Shown here in pieces: positions 1 through 8,385 of a stretch of DNA of 64,000 nt (within the stretch, counting starts at the first letter, position 1; the number at the start of each line of letters is the position of its first letter). The DNA is from Prosthecomicrobium sp. N25 (GTDB taxonomy: Bacteria; Pseudomonadota; Alphaproteobacteria; Rhizobiales; Ancalomicrobiaceae). Location: assembly GCF_037203705.1 (NCBI RefSeq), contig NZ_JBBCAT010000001.1, positions 186,001 to 250,000 on the forward strand. Direction: 5' to 3'. The notes below the pieces were generated by a model. The model made no database searches and was not told the origin of the DNA. It saw nothing but the letters and a program-made list of their open reading frames with translations. Both the position numbers and the translations under genes were made by a program.

Positions 1-477
1 CAGCGGGATCGGGTACTGGATGACGTTGACGAAGATCGGCACGACCTTCACGGGCCAGGCCTTCGGCCGGCCGAAGAAGAGCTCCATCGGCACCTGCAGG
101 CCGTGGTCGACCTCGATCTCCTGGATGATGGTCGGGTCGAACCGGTTCTCCACCATGGTGTCGACGAGATGCCAGGAGAGGTCGGCGGCACCCTCGAAGG
201 GCGGGATCGCACGCGGGCCCCAGCCCTCGTCGACCGGCCGGTACTCCTCGGCGCAGCCGACCGCGAAGGTCGGCACCCGGTCGAGGAAGAAGGAATTGCC
301 GTGGTCGTTGAAGATCACGACCGCGATGTCGGGCCGCGCGGCCTTCATCCAGGCCTTGGCGGGAATGTAGCCGTCGAAGAAAGGCTTCCACGCCGGCGTC
401 TCGGCGAGACCCTTGTCGATCGCCGCCGCGATGGAGGGCACGTGCGAGGTGCCGAGGCCGCCGATGAGCTTCGCCAT
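1..477 (-). CDS. ligB: Class III extradiol dioxygenase, catalytic (beta, LigB-type) subunit, 3' end cut by window edge
   Basis: The first 159 residues are present; the C-terminus lies beyond the window. The protein begins MAKLIGGLGTSHVPSIAAAI and carries the LigB-family iron-site context: the early TSHVP histidine, the NDH segment, GCAEEYRPVDEGWGPR, and VDHGLQVP. It closely follows the protocatechuate 4,5-dioxygenase beta chain, and the same fold occurs in gallate dioxygenases. It opens the ring of a vicinal-diol aromatic acid. Its ATG lies three bases after the stop of the hydrolase-LigA fusion gene, so the two are almost certainly one transcript and translationally coupled. The substrate (protocatechuate or gallate) cannot be settled from this fragment. 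Confidence 0.93.
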   Translation of the reverse strand, partial: MAKLIGGLGTSHVPSIAAAIDKGLAETPAWKPFFDGYIPAKAWMKAARPDIAVVIFNDHGNSFFLDRVPTFAVGCAEEYRPVDEGWGPRAIPPFEGAADLSWHLVDTMVENRFDPTIIQEIEVDHGLQVPMELFFGRPKAWPVKVVPIFVNVIQYPIPL

Positions 478-480
478 GCG

Positions 481-1533
481 CTAGTTCTTCCCCAGTCGCT
501 CGCGCAGGAACGCGTCGTGGTCCATGCCGGCCTGGTGCGCGCCGATCTCGGTGATGCGCACCGGGTCCACGGCCGAGATCTTCAGGATGAAGAAGAGGTT
601 GCCGCCGAGCCGCACCATCTCGCGCCAGTCCCGGCCCATGACGGCCCGCTTCTCCTCGGCCGAGAGGCCGAAGCGGTCCAGATAGGCCTCCTCGTTCTGC
701 AGGAACGCGGCCCGGTTCTCCGGCCGCGACAGGCCCATCGCCATCTTGTTGATGCGGTAGCCGCGGCGCGACCGCGCGCGGTCGAAGAGCGGCACGTCCG
801 GGATCCGGTCCCGCTCGGCGAAGCCCAGGAAGCCGAGGAGCGCCGCCGTCACCTGCTCGGGGCGCTCGACCGGCGACATGTGGCCGCTGTCCTCGATCAC
901 CACGAGTTCGGCGCCCGGGATCGCGGCGGCCATCTCCTCGTGCTGGGCGAGCGGACTCCAGCGGTCCTGCCGGCCGACGGCGACGAGCGTCGGGCAGGTG
1001 ATGGTCGGCAGCAGCGGGCGGGCGTCCGGCCGCTCCAGGAGCGCCTTGATCTGCCGGTGGTGCAGGGCGGGATCGGCGCGCATCACCATGGCGCGCAGCG
1101 GCGCCATCAGGGCCTCGTCCGCGACCCGGGCCTCGTGCACCATCGGGGGCAGCCACTTGTCGGCGAGCGCCGCCATGCCGTCCCGGTCGGCGAGGTCGAG
1201 CATGGCCTGCCGCCCGGCCGCCTCCCCGTCCCGCGCCGGATGCGCGCCCGTGTCCAGCACGGCGAGCCTGACGATCCGCTCGGGCGCCGCGCGGACCATC
1301 TCGAAGGCGACCCGGGCCCCCATCGAATGCCCGACCACCGCGATCGGTCCCGGCCGCAACGCCAGCGCGTCCCGGGCCATGGCGACGATCGAGTCCTGGG
1401 TCGTGCAGTCGGCCACCACCACGTCGTCATGCGGCCTCAGCGCGGCGATCTGGTGCGCCCAGACGCTCGCGTCGCAGAGGAGGCCTGGGATCAGGATGAT
1501 CGGCAAGGTCGGGGCCCGTCGGTCTGGCGGCAT
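481..1533 (-). CDS. Fusion protein: alpha/beta hydrolase joined to LigA-type extradiol dioxygenase small subunit
   Basis: 350 residues in two parts. Residues 1 to about 235 are an alpha/beta hydrolase with nucleophile elbow GHSMG (Ser70), acid Asp190 (VGRQD) and His218 (DSGHMSP), so the triad looks complete. Residues about 250-347 match the LigA subunit of protocatechuate 4,5-dioxygenase: RGYRINKMAMGLSRPENRAA, then WREMVRLGGNLFFILK, and the GAHQAGM motif. LigA is normally a free chain of about 120 residues, or the C-terminal part of gallate dioxygenase; it caps the LigB active site. No start codon with a good ribosome site is visible at the domain junction, so a real fusion is favoured. The hydrolase may feed the dioxygenase by cleaving an aromatic ester, or open a ring-cleavage lactone; both are inference. 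ATG at 1533 has only a weak purine stretch before it. Confidence 0.88.
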   Translation of the reverse strand: MPPDRRAPTLPIILIPGLLCDASVWAHQIAALRPHDDVVVADCTTQDSIVAMARDALALRPGPIAVVGHSMGARVAFEMVRAAPERIVRLAVLDTGAHPARDGEAAGRQAMLDLADRDGMAALADKWLPPMVHEARVADEALMAPLRAMVMRADPALHHRQIKALLERPDARPLLPTITCPTLVAVGRQDRWSPLAQHEEMAAAIPGAELVVIEDSGHMSPVERPEQVTAALLGFLGFAERDRIPDVPLFDRARSRRGYRINKMAMGLSRPENRAAFLQNEEAYLDRFGLSAEEKRAVMGRDWREMVRLGGNLFFILKISAVDPVRITEIGAHQAGMDHDAFLRERLGKN

Positions 1534-1657: not shown

Positions 1658-2566
1658 TTGCGCATCGATTTCCTCGGTCTCCACGCCTTCGTGGCCATCG
1701 CCGAGCGCGGCAGCTTCCAGCAGGCCGCCGCGCACCTGAACCTGTCGCAGACCGCGCTCAGCCACCGGATGAAGAAGCTCGAGGACGACCTCGGCGTCCG
1801 CCTCCTGTCGCGGACCACCCGCGAGGTGGCCCTCACCCCCGCCGGCCTGGAGCTCCTGCCGAAGGTGAAGGGCATGATCGAGGGGCTCTCGGCCTCCCTG
1901 CAGGATCTCCGGCAGCACGGCAAGTTGCGCCAGGAACGGCTGGCGATCGGCTGCCTCCCGACCATCGCGGCCGGCCGGCTGCCGGGCGTGCTGGCGCGCT
2001 TCCGGGCCGCGCACCCGGACGTCACGATCCGGGTCTTCGACAATTCGGCGACCGAGATCGCCGACCTTGTCGACCAGGGGACGGCCGAGTTCGGCATCAC
2101 GCTGCTCGCCGCCCACCGCTGGGACTTCGAGGTCGAGCTGCTCGCCCGCGAGCCCTTCGTGCTGGTCTGCCCCGCCGGCCACCCCATGGCGGCCGCCGCG
2201 GCCGCCGGCTGGGCGGAGCTCGAGGGTGTGCCGCTGATCCGCATCAGCCCGCACACCGGCAACCGCATGATGATCGACGACGCGCTCGGCAGCCGCCGCG
2301 AGCAGCTCTCCTGGCGCTACGAGGTCCAGCATGTCCACACCGCCGTCTCGCTCGTCCGCGCCGGCCTGGGCATGACGGTCGTCCCCCGGCTCGCCCTCGA
2401 CACGGTGGAGCGCGAGGGCCTCGCGGTGCTGACCTTGCGCAACCCGCAGGTGGTCCGCCAGATCGGCATCGTGTCGAAGCGCAGCGCCCCCCTGTCGCCC
2501 CTCGCCGACGAGCTCCGCCGTCTGGTCATCCAGGCCTTCGCGGCCGCCGAGGTGGCTCATTCCTGA
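1658..2566 (+). CDS. LysR-family transcriptional regulator of the aromatic-cleavage cluster
   Basis: 302 residues from a TTG start at 1658, chosen because AAGGA at 1645-1649 is well placed and the helix-turn-helix domain then begins at once (RIDFLGLHAFVAIAERGSF). Residues 1-60 are the winged HTH (QQAAAHLNLSQTALSHRMKK, RLLSRTTREVALTPAG); residues about 90-295 are the two-lobed effector domain. It is divergent from the dioxygenase genes and precedes galD, the usual position of GalR/PcaQ-type activators that respond to the pathway substrate or an intermediate. Two matching operator-like sites flank the gene. The inducer is not evident from sequence. Confidence 0.92.
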   Translation: MRIDFLGLHAFVAIAERGSFQQAAAHLNLSQTALSHRMKKLEDDLGVRLLSRTTREVALTPAGLELLPKVKGMIEGLSASLQDLRQHGKLRQERLAIGCLPTIAAGRLPGVLARFRAAHPDVTIRVFDNSATEIADLVDQGTAEFGITLLAAHRWDFEVELLAREPFVLVCPAGHPMAAAAAAGWAELEGVPLIRISPHTGNRMMIDDALGSRREQLSWRYEVQHVHTAVSLVRAGLGMTVVPRLALDTVEREGLAVLTLRNPQVVRQIGIVSKRSAPLSPLADELRRLVIQAFAAAEVAHS

Positions 2567-2667: not shown

Positions 2668-3777
2668 ATTCAACCGCGTGTCCCCTGCATGGTGCTCCGG
2701 GGCGGGACGTCCAAGGGCGCCTACTTCCTCGCCTCCGACCTGCCCGCCGACCCGGCCGCCCGCGACCGGCTGATCCTGTCCATCATGGGCTCGCCGGACG
2801 CCCGCCAGATCGACGGCATCGGCGGCGCGCACCCGCTGACCAGCAAGATCGCCATCGTGTCGCGCTCCGCGAAGCCGGGCAGCGACATCGACTTCCTGTT
2901 CGGCCAGGTGGTCCTCGCCGAGCCGCGCATCGACTACACGCCGAATTGCGGCAACATCCTCGCCGGAATCGGCCCCTTCGCGATCGAGCGTGGCCTCGTC
3001 GCCGCCGAGGACGGTGTGACCCGCGTGCGCGTCCACACCGTCAACACGGGCACGCTCGCCGAACTCGCCGTCGAGACCCCCGGCCGCCGCGTCCGCTACG
3101 GCGGCGACGCCCGCATCGACGGCGTGCCCGGCACCGCCGCCCCGATCGCCATCGACTTCATGGACGCCGAGGGCTCGGTTTGCGGCACTCTCCTGCCGAC
3201 CGGCAACGCCGTCGACCGGGTGGCCGGCGTCGACGCGACGCTCATTGACAACGGCATGCCGGTCGTGGTCCTCGCCGCCGCGGACCTCGGCCGCACCGGG
3301 CGGGAGCCCCGCGACCAGCTCGACAAGGACACCGCCCTGAAGGCCCGCCTCGAGGAGATCCGCCTGGAGGCGGGCCGGCTGATGGGGCTCGGCGACGTGT
3401 CCGCCAAGGTCGTGCCGAAGATGTGCCTGGTCGCCCCGCCGGTCGCCGGCGGCACCCTGTGCACCCGCAGCTTCATCCCGCACGAGTGCCACGCCTCGAT
3501 CGGGGTCTTCGCCGCCGTGACGGTCGCCACCGCCGCCATGCTGCCGGGCTCGCCCGCCGCCCGCGTCGCCGCGATCCCGCCGGGCCGGGACAAGACCCTG
3601 TCGATCGAGCATCCGACGGGTGAGTTCAGCGTCATCCTGCGGGTCGGGGGCACGCCGCAGGAGCCCGTCGTCGAGCGCGCCGGCCTCCTGCGGACCGCCC
3701 GGCTCCTGTTCGACGGCGTCGCCTTCGCCCGCGAGGACCTCGCCGAGGTGGCCGAAGCCGCGCGCGACGCCGCCTGA
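2668..3777 (+). CDS. galD: 4-Oxalomesaconate tautomerase (PrpF family), probable ATT start
   Basis: About 369 residues. It converts the keto/enol forms of 4-oxalomesaconate in gallate or protocatechuate 4,5-cleavage degradation. Family marks are [49 protein letters not shown], and [16 protein letters not shown]. The family protein normally starts about five residues before IPC/VPC. The only codon that fits is ATT at 2668, with GGGAGG at 2656-2661 six bases upstream. The in-frame ATG at 2602 would add 22 residues, lacks a ribosome site and sits on the operator. An ATT start is rare, and a sequencing error of ATG is the alternative. It is 36 bases ahead of galB. Confidence 0.9.
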
Positions 3778-3813: not shown

Positions 3814-4536
3814 ATGTCATCCGGAAAGTCCGGTCTCGTCGTCACCGCCCACCCGGGCGACTTCGTCTGGCGCGCCGGGGGCGCCATCGCGCTGCACGCC
3901 CGGCGCGGCTACCGCATGAAGATCGTCTGCCTCTCCTACGGCGAGCGCGGCGAGAGCCAGTGGGCCTGGAAGAAGGGCGACATCGGCCTCGAGGAGGTGA
4001 AGGCGCAGCGCCGGGACGAGGCCGAGCGCGCCGCCGCGACGCTCGGCGCCGAGATCGAGTTCTTCGACGCCGGCGACTATCCCCTCCGGCCGACCGCCGA
4101 GATGCTCGACCGGCTGGTCGACGTCTACCGCGCGCTGAAGCCCGCCTTCGTGCTGACCCACTCGCTCGAGGACCCCTACAACGTCGACCACCCCGAGGCG
4201 ACCCGCTTCGCCCAGGAGGCCCGCATCATCGCCCAGGCCGCCGGCCACAAGCCGAGCCCGGACCTCGCCTACGCGGCCCCGCCGGTCTTCCTGTTCGAGC
4301 CGCACCAGCCCGAGCAGTGCAATTACAAGCCCAACGTGATCCTCAACATCGACGAGGTCTGGGAGACGAAGCGCGCCGCGTTCGAGATCCTCGCCGCCCA
4401 GAAGCACCTCTGGGAGTACTACACCCGCGTGGCGCTGAACCGCGGGGTCCAGGGCGGCCGCAACTCCGGCAAGGCCATGACGTATGGCGAAGCCTACCAG
4501 CGCATCTTCCCCGAGATCGTCGAGGTCCTGGCATGA
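3814..4536 (+). CDS. galB: 4-Oxalomesaconate hydratase, PIG-L/LmbE fold
   Basis: 240 residues. It hydrates 4-oxalomesaconate to 4-carboxy-4-hydroxy-2-oxoadipate. It belongs to the PIG-L (LmbE) zinc-hydrolase fold, recognised by [20 protein letters not shown] near the N-terminus and [12 protein letters not shown] further on. The AHPGDFVWR variant of the usual AHPDDE metal motif is what GalB-type hydratases, rather than deacetylases, show. This enzyme replaces the unrelated LigJ hydratase of Sphingobium. The ATG at 3814 with GAAGG eight bases upstream is preferred to a TTG at 3781. The stop overlaps the next start (ATGA), so galB and galC are translationally coupled. Confidence 0.92.
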
Positions 4537-5225
4537 AGCCCGTCGTCGTCACCGGCTGCCCGCGCACCGAGGAGGACCTGGTTGCCCGCCTCGGCGCGCT
4601 CGGCGTGGCCACCGCCCACGAGGCGCTCGGCCGCTCCGGGCTGATGAAGCCCTACATGCGGCCCGTCTGGCCGGGCGCCGCGATCGCCGGCAACGCCGTC
4701 ACGGTGCTCGCCCAGCCCGGCGATAACTGGATGATCCACGTGGCCGTCGAGCAGTGCCGCCCGGGCGACGTCATGGTGGTCGCCTGCACGGCCGACAACA
4801 CGGACGGCATGTTCGGCGACCTGCTGGCGACCTCCCTGAAGGCCCGCGGCGTGGTCGGGCTCGTCATCGACGCCGGCTGCCGGGACGTGGCGACCCTGCG
4901 GGAGATGGGCTTCCCCGTCTGGTCCCGCGCCGTCTCCGCGAAGGGCACCGTCAAGGCGACGCTGGGCGCCGTCAACGTGCCCGTCGTTTGCGCGGGCGCC
5001 CTGGTGCGGCCCGGCGACGCGGTGGTGGCGGACGACGACGGCGTGCTGGTGGTGCCGCGCCGGGACGCCGCCGCGACCGTGCAGGCCGGCGAGGACCGGG
5101 TCGCCAACGAGGGCGCCAAGCGCGAGAAGCTCGCCGCCGGCGTCCTCGGCCTCGACCTCTACGGCATGCGCGAGCCGCTCGCCAGGGCGGGCCTCCGGTA
5201 CGTGGCGTACACGGGCGAGGAGTGA
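4533..5225 (+). CDS. galC: 4-Carboxy-4-hydroxy-2-oxoadipate aldolase / oxaloacetate decarboxylase
   Basis: 230 residues, RraA-like fold. It cleaves 4-carboxy-4-hydroxy-2-oxoadipate to pyruvate plus oxaloacetate, the last step of the gallate and protocatechuate 4,5-routes, and usually also decarboxylates oxaloacetate. The metal/phosphate loop is seen as [20 protein letters not shown] with the Arg-Asp pair, preceded by [19 protein letters not shown]. It is the ligK counterpart in Sphingobium naming. It overlaps galB by four bases. Confidence 0.93.
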
Positions 5226-5260: not shown

Positions 5261-6088
5261 ATGACCCTGAGCATCGCCATCATCGGCTTCGGCGAGGTCG
5301 GCCAGCTGTTCGGCCGGCAGTTCCGCGAGCGAGGCGCCCGCGTCGCGGTCCACGACCGCCTCTTCGACGATCCCGGCCGTGGCCCCGCCCTGGCGGACCG
5401 TGCCGGCACCCTCGGGCTGCGGGCCGCGGCGAGCCACGGCGAGGCGGTCCGCGGGGCCGGGTTGGTGATCTCGGCGGTGACCGCCGACCAGGCCGTCGCG
5501 GCCGCGCAGCAATGCGCCCCGTACCTCGAGCAGGGGCAGGTCTACATCGACCTCAACTCGGTGTCGCCCGCCACCAAGGGCAGGGTCGCCGCCGCCCTGC
5601 CGCCGACCGGGGTGCACTTCGTCGAATGGGCCGTGATGGCCCCCGTCGCCGAGCCCGGCATCGCCGTGCCGATCCTGGCGGGCGGACCCCGGGCGGCGGC
5701 GCTCGCGGCCGACCTGAACCGGCTCGGCATGCGCATCGACCCGGTCGGCGAGGAGATCGGCATCGCCTCCGCCACCAAGCTCTGTCGCTCGATCGTCATC
5801 AAGGGCATGGAGGCGCTGATGGTCGACCTGTCGCTCGTCACCGCCCGGAACGGGGTCCTGCCCGCCGTGCTGAAGAGCCTGTCGGCCTCCTACCCGGGCA
5901 TGGACTGGGCCGAGGTCGTCAAGGTGATGCCCGGCCGCGTGCGCCGGCATGGGCGGCGCCGGGCCGCGGAGATGCGCGAGTGCGCCGCGATGCTGCGCGA
6001 GGCGGGCCTGGCGGGCGACCTCGCCGAGGCCATCGCGGTGCGGCACGAGACCTTCGCGGGCGCCCCAGCCCCCGAAGGCAAAGCCTAA
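5261..6088 (+). CDS. NAD(P)-dependent oxidoreductase, 6-phosphogluconate-dehydrogenase-like with DUF1932 domain
   Basis: 275 residues. The N-terminal Rossmann domain starts with IIGFGEVGQLFG (GxGxxG at residues 9-14), and the C-terminal helical part resembles DUF1932 (SATKLCRSIVIKGMEALMVD, with the conserved Lys). GGGAGGAGC lies just before the ATG at 5261. It is the last gene of the galD-galB-galC block, 35 bases after galC. Related proteins are found next to 4,5-cleavage genes, but the substrate is not known to me. It is not of the LigC (GFO/IDH) type, so it should not be called the CHMS dehydrogenase without testing. Confidence 0.8.
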   Translation: MTLSIAIIGFGEVGQLFGRQFRERGARVAVHDRLFDDPGRGPALADRAGTLGLRAAASHGEAVRGAGLVISAVTADQAVAAAQQCAPYLEQGQVYIDLNSVSPATKGRVAAALPPTGVHFVEWAVMAPVAEPGIAVPILAGGPRAAALAADLNRLGMRIDPVGEEIGIASATKLCRSIVIKGMEALMVDLSLVTARNGVLPAVLKSLSASYPGMDWAEVVKVMPGRVRRHGRRRAAEMRECAAMLREAGLAGDLAEAIAVRHETFAGAPAPEGKA

Positions 6089-6621: not shown

Positions 6622-8385
6622 TCAGTAGCCCGCCGCCAGCGTGCCGCGCTGGCGCGGGTCGGCGGCGCCGAGCAGGCCTTCCGGGGTCACGTGGATCGAG
6701 TTGGCCGAGCCCGAGGTGGTCCCGACCACGACCTTGTGGCCCCGTCCCTTCAGGATCTCGATCGTGTCGGGCGACAGCCCGGCCTCGGTCAGCAGCGCGT
6801 CCGGCCGCCACTGGTGGTGGACGCGCGGCGCCGCGACCGCCTCGGCGACGTTCATGCCGTTGTCGACGACGTTGACGATCACCTGCAGGGTCGTGGAGAT
6901 GATCCGGCTCCCGCCCGGGCTGCCGGTCACCATGGCGAGCTTACCGTCGCGGAACAGGAAGGTCGGCGTCATCGAGGAGAGCGGGCGGGCGCCCGGAGCC
7001 ACGCTGTTGGTGTCGCCGCCGACCAGCCCGTAGGCGTTCTGGGCGCCGGCCTTGGCCGAGAAGTCGTCCATCTCGTTGTTGAGCATCACCCCCGTGCCCT
7101 CCGCCACGAGCCCGAGCCCGTAGGTGAAGTTGAGCGTGTAGGTGTTCGCGACCGCGTTGCCGTCCCGGTCGACCACCGAGAAGTGGGTGGTCTGGTCGCT
7201 CTCGTACGGCAAAGGGTCGCCCGCCCGGATCGCGTCGGCGGGCCGCGCCGCGGCCGGGTCGATGGCGGCGCGCAGCTTGGCCGCATAGGCCTTCGAGGTC
7301 AGGCCCTTGACGGGAATCTTGACCCGGTCCGGGTCGCCCAGGAACTCGGCGCGGTCCGCGTAGGCCGGCTTCATCGCCTCCGCCAGCAGGTGGATCTGCT
7401 GGCCGCTGCCGGCCCCCGCCTTGGCGATGTCGAAGCCCTCCAGGATGTTGAGGATCTGGATCAGGTGGACGCCGCCCGAGGACGGCGGCGGCATGGAGAC
7501 GACGTCGTAGCCGCGGTAGGTGCCGCGCACCGGCTGGCGCGTCACCACCTTGTAGCCGGCGAGGTCCTCGGCGGTCATCACGCCGCCCGCGCCCTTGACC
7601 GCGGCCGCGATCCTCTCGGCGACCGGTCCCTTGTAGAAGCCGTCCGGCCCCTGGGCGGCGATCGTCTTCAGCGTCGCGGCCAGGTCGGCCTGCACCAGCG
7701 TCTCGCCGCGGCCGAGCGGCTGGTCGCCCCGGTAGAAGATCGCCCGGGTCGACGGGTACTGCTTCAGCCGGGTGGCGGTCGGCAGCGAATCGGCGAGGTC
7801 CTCGGCGACCGGGATGCCGTCGGACGCGAGCGCCACCGCGGGCGCGATCAGGTCGGCGAGCGTGAACTTGCCCGAGCCGTAGCGCCGGTGCGCCTCGGCG
7901 AGGCCCGCGACCGTGCCGGGCACGCCGACCGCGAGGCCGGAGTCGCGCGACTTCTTGGGATCCGGCTCGCCCTTGGCGTCCAGGAACATGTCCCGGAAGG
8001 CGGCTGCCGGGGCGGTCTCGCGGTAGTCGATGGCGACGGTCTCGTTGCGGGACGCCATGTGGACCATCATGAAGCCGCCGCCGCCGAGGTTGCCGGCGCG
8101 CGGCAGCGTCACCGCGAGCGCGAAGCCGACCGCCACCGCCGCATCGACCGCGTTGCCGCCGCGCTTCAGGATCTCGACGCCGACCTTCGTGGCCGTGCCC
8201 TCCTGGGAGGCGACCATGCCCTTGGTGCCGATCACCGGCAGGAGCCGGCTCGCCGCGGACTGGATCGGCTGGCCGGGCTGGGGCATGCCGGGAGGCGCAC
8301 CCTGAGCGAAAGCCGCATTCTGGAGCGAGAGGCACAGGGCCGCCGCGGCGGCGAGGCGGATCGGACGGGCGAGGCGTTGCGGCAT
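6622..8385 (-). CDS. ggt: Gamma-glutamyltransferase (glutathione hydrolase), periplasmic
   Basis: 587 residues, the usual size for a GGT precursor. A signal peptide spans residues 1-28 (LAAAAALCLSLQNAAFA). The precursor cuts itself before the catalytic threonine, here Thr399 in DQTTHFSVVD, to give large and small subunits. Other family marks are NLGGGGFMMVH, the large-subunit Arg region DYRETAP, PPPSSGGVHL, PLSSMTPT and the oxyanion GSPGGSRI. It hydrolyses or transfers the gamma-glutamyl group of glutathione in the periplasm. It stands alone on the minus strand, divergent from the acetate transport genes. Confidence 0.96.
   Translation of the reverse strand: MPQRLARPIRLAAAAALCLSLQNAAFAQGAPPGMPQPGQPIQSAASRLLPVIGTKGMVASQEGTATKVGVEILKRGGNAVDAAVAVGFALAVTLPRAGNLGGGGFMMVHMASRNETVAIDYRETAPAAAFRDMFLDAKGEPDPKKSRDSGLAVGVPGTVAGLAEAHRRYGSGKFTLADLIAPAVALASDGIPVAEDLADSLPTATRLKQYPSTRAIFYRGDQPLGRGETLVQADLAATLKTIAAQGPDGFYKGPVAERIAAAVKGAGGVMTAEDLAGYKVVTRQPVRGTYRGYDVVSMPPPSSGGVHLIQILNILEGFDIAKAGAGSGQQIHLLAEAMKPAYADRAEFLGDPDRVKIPVKGLTSKAYAAKLRAAIDPAAARPADAIRAGDPLPYESDQTTHFSVVDRDGNAVANTYTLNFTYGLGLVAEGTGVMLNNEMDDFSAKAGAQNAYGLVGGDTNSVAPGARPLSSMTPTFLFRDGKLAMVTGSPGGSRIISTTLQVIVNVVDNGMNVAEAVAAPRVHHQWRPDALLTEAGLSPDTIEILKGRGHKVVVGTTSGSANSIHVTPEGLLGAADPRQRGTLAAGY

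Follow-up and report, generated by a model that had tools for sequence, protein, structure and literature searches.

A hydrolase-LigA fusion in Prosthecomicrobium sp. N25 and its probable place in the 3-O-methylgallate pathway

The stretch of DNA analysed here, 64,000 nucleotides from Prosthecomicrobium sp. N25 and referred to below as the window, holds near its start a reading frame in which an alpha/beta hydrolase runs straight into LigA, the alpha subunit of a ring-opening dioxygenase. This raises the question of whether such a protein is real and, if so, what a hydrolase would do on that subunit. We conclude that the fusion is real and, with a probability of about 0.68, that it joins an MgaC-like hydrolase to the alpha subunit of an MgaAB-like dioxygenase in a syringate / 3-O-methylgallate (3MGA) pathway. 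The parts of the frame and the gene that follows it are:

1..477, minus strand: LigB, residues 1-159 of 287, leaving the window (PF02900; best PDB match 1b4u_B)
481..1533, minus strand: fusion frame, 350 residues, putatively MgaC-like hydrolase plus MgaA-like LigA (reading frame, Pfam)
484..816, minus strand: LigA half, residues 240-350 (PF07746, alignment)
817..825, minus strand: linker Gly-Phe-Ala, without ATG, the gap between the two stretches of homology
826..1533, minus strand: hydrolase half, residues 1-236, with Ser70, Asp190 and His218 (Abhydrolase_6, conserved triad)

The initial annotation had described one frame leading from a hydrolase with a Ser70-Asp190-His218 triad into LigA, with LigB beginning three bases downstream, and both points stand. 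The frame opens with ATG, remains open for 350 codons and stops at 481-483, and the ATG of LigB lies at 477-475. Abhydrolase_6 covers residues 12-230 (5.6e-17) and the LigA domain residues 261-345 (6.7e-27), both above the curated Pfam cut-offs (for PF07746, 93.9 bits vs 25.3). By tblastn, hydrolase homology ends at residue 236 and LigA homology begins at 240, which leaves the three-residue linker, and free hydrolases from the same bacterial family match the hydrolase half at 61-63%. The triad is invariant across 11 aligned joined proteins. An AlphaFold2 model built from these 11 reached a mean pLDDT of 86.2 and a pTM of 0.72 as the best of five, and should be considered as the single good one, the others having means of 54-58. 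Its ten-residue blocks score 78-98 in the hydrolase, except for the first (51), then 62 at residues 241-250 and 61-88 across the LigA half. The top Foldseek matches of the model are Thermogutta esterase entries (4uhd, 4uhe, 4uhh, 4uhc), followed by the enol-lactonase 2xua.

The hydrolase-LigA fusion is no artefact. Around codon 240 there is neither a stop nor a frameshift. Searches of two further genomes of the genus, G001 (Prosthecomicrobium hirschii) and G002, found the fusion there too as one open frame, 78% identical across residues 10-349, which rules out an assembly error as its source. An internal start of LigA is also unlikely, as the junction contains no ATG and its in-frame GTG, which sits within an IPxVPL stretch, has by eye no evident Shine-Dalgarno sequence. 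The annotators knew of no characterised hydrolase-LigA enzyme, and a literature search covering mainly open-access papers likewise found none.

At E 1e-60, a single open frame with both domains was found in 4 of 397 genomes of an even sample of the order (the window's genome G000, G001, G002 and G521, where the frame is truncated by a contig end), while at E 1e-40 it was seen in G000 alone in a class sample (385) and a phylum sample (398). In G187, G248, G290 and G709, hydrolase and LigA are two genes. To describe the relatives, we collected loci in which the hydrolase immediately precedes LigA, with a minimum of 60% identity for LigA and of 150 residues for LigB. Starting from 51 first-search loci, reading of the frames and addition of loci from further genomes gave a set of 49, of which 48 are distinct (L062 and L134 come from one genome and share the same LigAB row). 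L001, L008, L089, L090 and L091 were dropped as repeats of the same places, loci with a more distant LigA (L087, L095, L130, L131, L120, L123, L140, L150) were left out of the count, and the contig-end locus of G521 (L136) was counted as joined. Hydrolase and LigA are joined in frame at 13 of the 49 loci and are separate genes at 36. An estimate of some 40 fusion loci was rejected, since in most of them the match extends over a pair of neighbouring genes. Across this set the triad is retained throughout (Ser70 in 48/48 loci covering the position, Asp190 and His218 each in 49/49).

What the fused LigA would pair with can be read from the genome. The full LigB has 287 residues, with its remainder beyond the window (L088 7615-8478). 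In the window's genome (99.28% complete), one LigA domain, the fused one, and one LigB were found, so that any alpha subunit that this LigB needs is the fusion. LigB exceeds the cut-off of the PRK13364 subfamily (375.3 vs 290), and its His12, His59 and His193 are present in 49/49 loci and Glu240 in 48/48. The iron ligands of LigAB, which we take to be His12, His61 and Glu242 of SYK-6 LigB (the role of the base is presumed in the same way), align with His12, His59 and Glu240 here, and the pair thus has the LigB partner, iron ligands and base of a LigAB-type class III extradiol dioxygenase. Models of narrower function are not reached. The protocatechuate-type LigA models score below cut-off (TIGR02792, 76.5 vs 108.6; PRK13377, 87.9 vs 173), as does LigB alone against gallate dioxygenase PRK13367 (312.8 vs 412), where one chain is expected and two are found. 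The hydrolase is likewise below the enol-lactonase models PcaD and PcaDC (87.1 vs 255.85 and 107.8 vs 390); among its named relatives are both esterases and enol-lactonases (PcaD), and a lactone substrate is therefore possible.

LigB is the first gene downstream on the strand of the fusion, and after it come genes for a YCII-related protein, a periplasmic binding protein, a Rieske oxygenase of VanA type (VanA_C, 157.8 bits), a reductase resembling VanB and a GntR/FCD regulator. Divergent from the fusion are genes for a LysR regulator, an OMA tautomerase, a PIG-L protein, a CHA aldolase and a dehydrogenase-like protein:

L088 7286-7618, same strand as the fusion: YCII-related small protein, downstream of LigB
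1658..2566, plus strand: LysR-type regulator in a GalR-like position, TTG start assumed (LysR_substrate 158.9 bits, HTH_1 78.4 bits)
2689..3777, plus strand: 4-oxalomesaconate tautomerase (GalD), start approximate (NF033377, 527.4 bits vs 440; PrpF)
3814..4536, plus strand: PIG-L family protein (PF02585), putatively GalB from its position, where that hydratase would be expected
4533..5225, plus strand: 4-carboxy-4-hydroxy-2-oxoadipate aldolase, GalC/LigK (NF006731 and TIGR02798 above cut-off)
5261..6088, plus strand: NAD-binding, dehydrogenase-like protein carrying DUF1932, whose gene is often found close to genes of this kind

On either side of the demethylase genes lies a binding protein of the branched-chain amino-acid type (L088 1791-2963 and 6078-7250). 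The two are similar, each has 390 residues, one of them is adjoined by a permease, and they perhaps serve the uptake of aromatic acids. A gamma-glutamyltranspeptidase gene (6622-8385, minus strand, 598.4 bits) adjoins the cluster with no evident link to it.

Demethylase genes are found in the covered flanks of 23 of the 49 loci, 17 with VanA-like and 6 with GCV_T-like genes. The other 26 loci count against the 3MGA reading, as 17 of them, Neorhizobium and Rhabdaerophilum included, were covered over at least 13 kb and truly lack such a gene within that distance. A VanB-like piece lies at the edge of L125, and PurU- and MetF-like genes occur in L061. Unfused homologues of the hydrolase are found on Roseomonas and Sphingobium plasmids, one (Roseomonas) with LigAB and Rieske/GntR/VanB genes and another with folate and gcvT genes. 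Those of L128, L142, L148, L149 and L152 lie beside VanA- or GCV_T-like genes, and no demethylase gene was found around the hydrolase in L118, L119, L121, L122, L127 and L129. On plasmid pPDL2 of Sphingobium fuliginis (L131), the hydrolase (53%) is part of a hydrolase-NTF2-LigB-LigA-LysR cluster that is likely a 3-O-methylgallate cluster; the organophosphate hydrolase gene opdA is on the same plasmid. G003, G009 and G012, of the same bacterial family as the window's genome, have a free hydrolase and YCII with no LigAB beside them. In the first two (L118, L119) the hydrolase, LysR, YCII and binding protein keep the order of the window's genome, with LigA-LigB missing from between, and G003 has two other LigAB pairs elsewhere.

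A further indication comes from position 103 of LigA. Phe103 of SYK-6 LigA is reported to sense the C5 group, and its mutants to enhance turnover of gallate and 3MGA (PMC10094722). The aligned residue of the fusion is Ile327, and the whole 49-locus set has Ile, Met or Val there, which argues against protocatechuate and does not distinguish gallate from 3MGA. Of the LigA proteins in the distant loci L120 and L123, the one encoded beside a dehydrogenase-like gene carries Phe and the LigI-adjacent one Val; the residue is Leu in L130 and L087, Asn in L131 and Gln in L095. A purely gallate-cleaving LigAB, with the hydrolase unrelated or accessory, would also fit Ile at this position, and the gal genes adjoining the fusion and the sub-threshold match of LigB to the gallate dioxygenase model are also in its favor. 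Cleavage of gallate, however, gives OMA directly with no need for a hydrolase, whereas here the triad is strictly conserved and demethylase genes are nearby, and we consider this explanation improbable. It is the hydrolase and the demethylase genes, rather than position 103, that by gene content point to 3MGA.

The parallel that gives this pathway its form is Pseudomonas sp. NGC7, described in PMC12314914. There, one operon, controlled by the GntR repressor VanR2, comprises vanA1B1, mgaAB, mgaC and mgaD, and a second, controlled by the LysR activator GalR, comprises galBCD and fdhA2. MgaAB opens 3-O-methylgallate to the methyl ester CHMOD, which has a half-life of about 70 min, MgaC is the putative CHMOD hydrolase, mgaD is not essential, and an mgaC mutant gives PDC at 95% molar yield. 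In the scheme that we infer for the fusion, for substrates and products as for assembly with LigB, the role of YCII and the benefit of a tether, the VanA/VanB-type demethylase would convert syringate to 3-O-methylgallate, and the LigA half would pair with LigB and open the ring beside the methoxy carbon, so that the methyl ester of CHMOD would derive from the methoxy group. The tethered hydrolase would then cleave this ester, releasing methanol, ahead of cyclisation of CHMOD to PDC, and the product, perhaps helped by the small YCII protein, would pass to OMA, which GalD, GalB and GalC would convert into pyruvate and oxaloacetate. The YCII gene follows LigB in 44 of the 49 loci, and its product may stand in for the tautomerase MgaD. 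The NTF2 protein of pPDL2, as a query at E 1e-15, had no match in L088.

The order of reactions is where we depart from the initial annotation. It proposed a tethered enzyme in which an aromatic ester (e.g. of gallate) is hydrolysed and LigAB then opens the freed ring. The tether itself holds, as the fusion is real and would attach the hydrolase to LigAB, but by analogy with MgaAB/MgaC and from the methoxylated-aromatics neighbourhood the reverse order is probably correct, with ring opening making the ester that the hydrolase then cleaves. Although a feruloyl esterase and aryl esterases are among the Foldseek neighbours of the hydrolase, hydrolysis of an aromatic ester first would leave both the O-demethylase genes in 23/49 loci and the NGC7 parallel unexplained, and we give it little credence.

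The hydrolase might also act one step later, as a lactonase that opens PDC, the cyclisation product of CHMOD, and takes the role of the amidohydrolase LigI. Its enol-lactonase relatives would allow this, loss of a PDC hydrolase would likewise be consistent with the PDC build-up in the mgaC mutant, and at E 1e-10 the LigI query P0003 (which matches 4d8l) found no LigI-like PDC hydrolase in G000, G001 or G002. The same query has hits, many of them weak, in 31 of 48 genomes, and in 13 of the 49 loci, all Microvirga and 6 of them joined, a LigI-like gene lies in the locus itself, where such a lactonase would be redundant. This coexistence argues against simple substitution and equally against joining as compensation for a missing LigI. 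From the 70-min half-life, the NGC7 authors favour CHMOD (PMC12314914), and we regard PDC as an unlikely substrate. A link between joining and an absent PDC hydrolase was considered and failed on the LigI-like genes of the joined Microvirga loci.

With hydrolysis of CHMOD as the preferred reading, the question is why the two proteins were joined. The relatives present graded junctions. Eight of the 13 joined loci keep an internal ATG (Alsobacter L037, MAG L039, Microvirga L041-L046), preceded by AGGAGG in L039 and, by eye, by weaker Shine-Dalgarno-like bases in the others, and may make both fused and free LigA. The remaining five, namely the window, P. hirschii, G002, Ciceribacter L047 and L136, have no junction ATG; L047 has ACG at the site of the ATG in its relative L066, and the other four have an in-frame GTG. 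On a LigA+LigB tree of 53 rows, of which five have long branches, explaining the joined state takes six changes (5-6 on bootstrap trees), gain and loss not being told apart. None of 200 bootstrap trees shows a single change, and grouping of the joined loci as one clade is rejected (p-AU 1.1e-5, in a test done after a first tree was seen). What is new here is the joined form, its repeated origin and the graded intermediates; the pathway with separate genes was described in 2025.

One explanation, compatible with the proposed chemistry, is that the join is neutral, adjacent operon genes having lost a stop codon with no benefit from the tether. Hydrolase and LigA are two tightly packed genes in most relatives, joined and separate forms coexist in Microvirga, the internal ATG is commonly kept, and joining does not track the absence of LigI. 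Against this, joining in about six events at 13/49 loci compares with none between LigA and LigB (0/49) or between LigB and YCII (0/44), a difference that is suggestive only, as the rows are related and the frames differ. We put a neutral join at even odds. That dioxygenase and esterase were joined several times because the tether hands unstable CHMOD straight to the hydrolase is a tentative proposal. In actinobacterial loci (L080-L083; Nonomuraea, Thermocatellispora, Phytoactinopolyspora), LigA and LigB are 75-81% identical to those of the window, with GCV_T-type demethylase genes nearby in 4/4, possibly a transfer between phyla with an analogous hydrolase. Use of the same hydrolase was considered and failed, as an alpha/beta hydrolase follows LigB in two of the four (L080, L081) and that of L081 has no convincing similarity.

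If the proposal is correct, the fusion would channel CHMOD naturally, with the ester that the dioxygenase forms being cleaved on its own alpha subunit, and the relatives would display the steps of its evolution, from separate genes to an in-frame join with an internal start to loss of that start. On the CHMOD reading, tethered or not, the fusion would be tied to a specific step in the breakdown of S-lignin, that of methoxylated fragments such as syringate, and the pathway demonstrated in 2025 in a single Pseudomonas would appear to run in many Hyphomicrobiales. Natural joined and separate versions allow a test of whether tethering lowers leakage to PDC. As PDC is a polymer building block, loss of the hydrolase would be useful too, as reported for NGC7 without mgaC.

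Among known systems, the closest by gene context is NGC7, which shares the alpha/beta hydrolase, LigAB-type heterodimer, VanAB-type demethylase, GntR regulator and gal genes with LysR. Unlike in the window, mgaC and mgaA are separate there. What would be expected of an MgaC-type hydrolase is present here in its fold with the Ser-Asp-His triad and in the adjoining VanAB-type demethylase, LigAB-type dioxygenase and OMA pathway genes, except that no MgaD-like gene (SnoaL/NTF2 type in NGC7) was seen in the operon, a YCII protein being in that neighbourhood instead. DesC of sphingomonads, a CHMOD methylesterase to which NGC7 MgaC is 13% identical, has the same reaction as is proposed for the hydrolase half (PMC12314914). 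As in SYK-6 LigAB (Sphingobium, 1b4u), LigA and LigB are two chains with aligning LigB iron ligands, but LigA here carries an N-terminal hydrolase, has Ile for Phe103 and is below the protocatechuate LigA equivalog cut-off. GalA and DesB also have LigB and LigA domains and a close lower pathway; these, however, are one LigB-LigA chain with no hydrolase, while LigB is a separate chain in the window. Finally, PcaDC / PcaCD, in which the partner is a carboxymuconolactone decarboxylase and far below whose cut-off the fusion scores, nonetheless shows that fusion of an alpha/beta hydrolase with a different enzyme of a ring pathway has occurred before.
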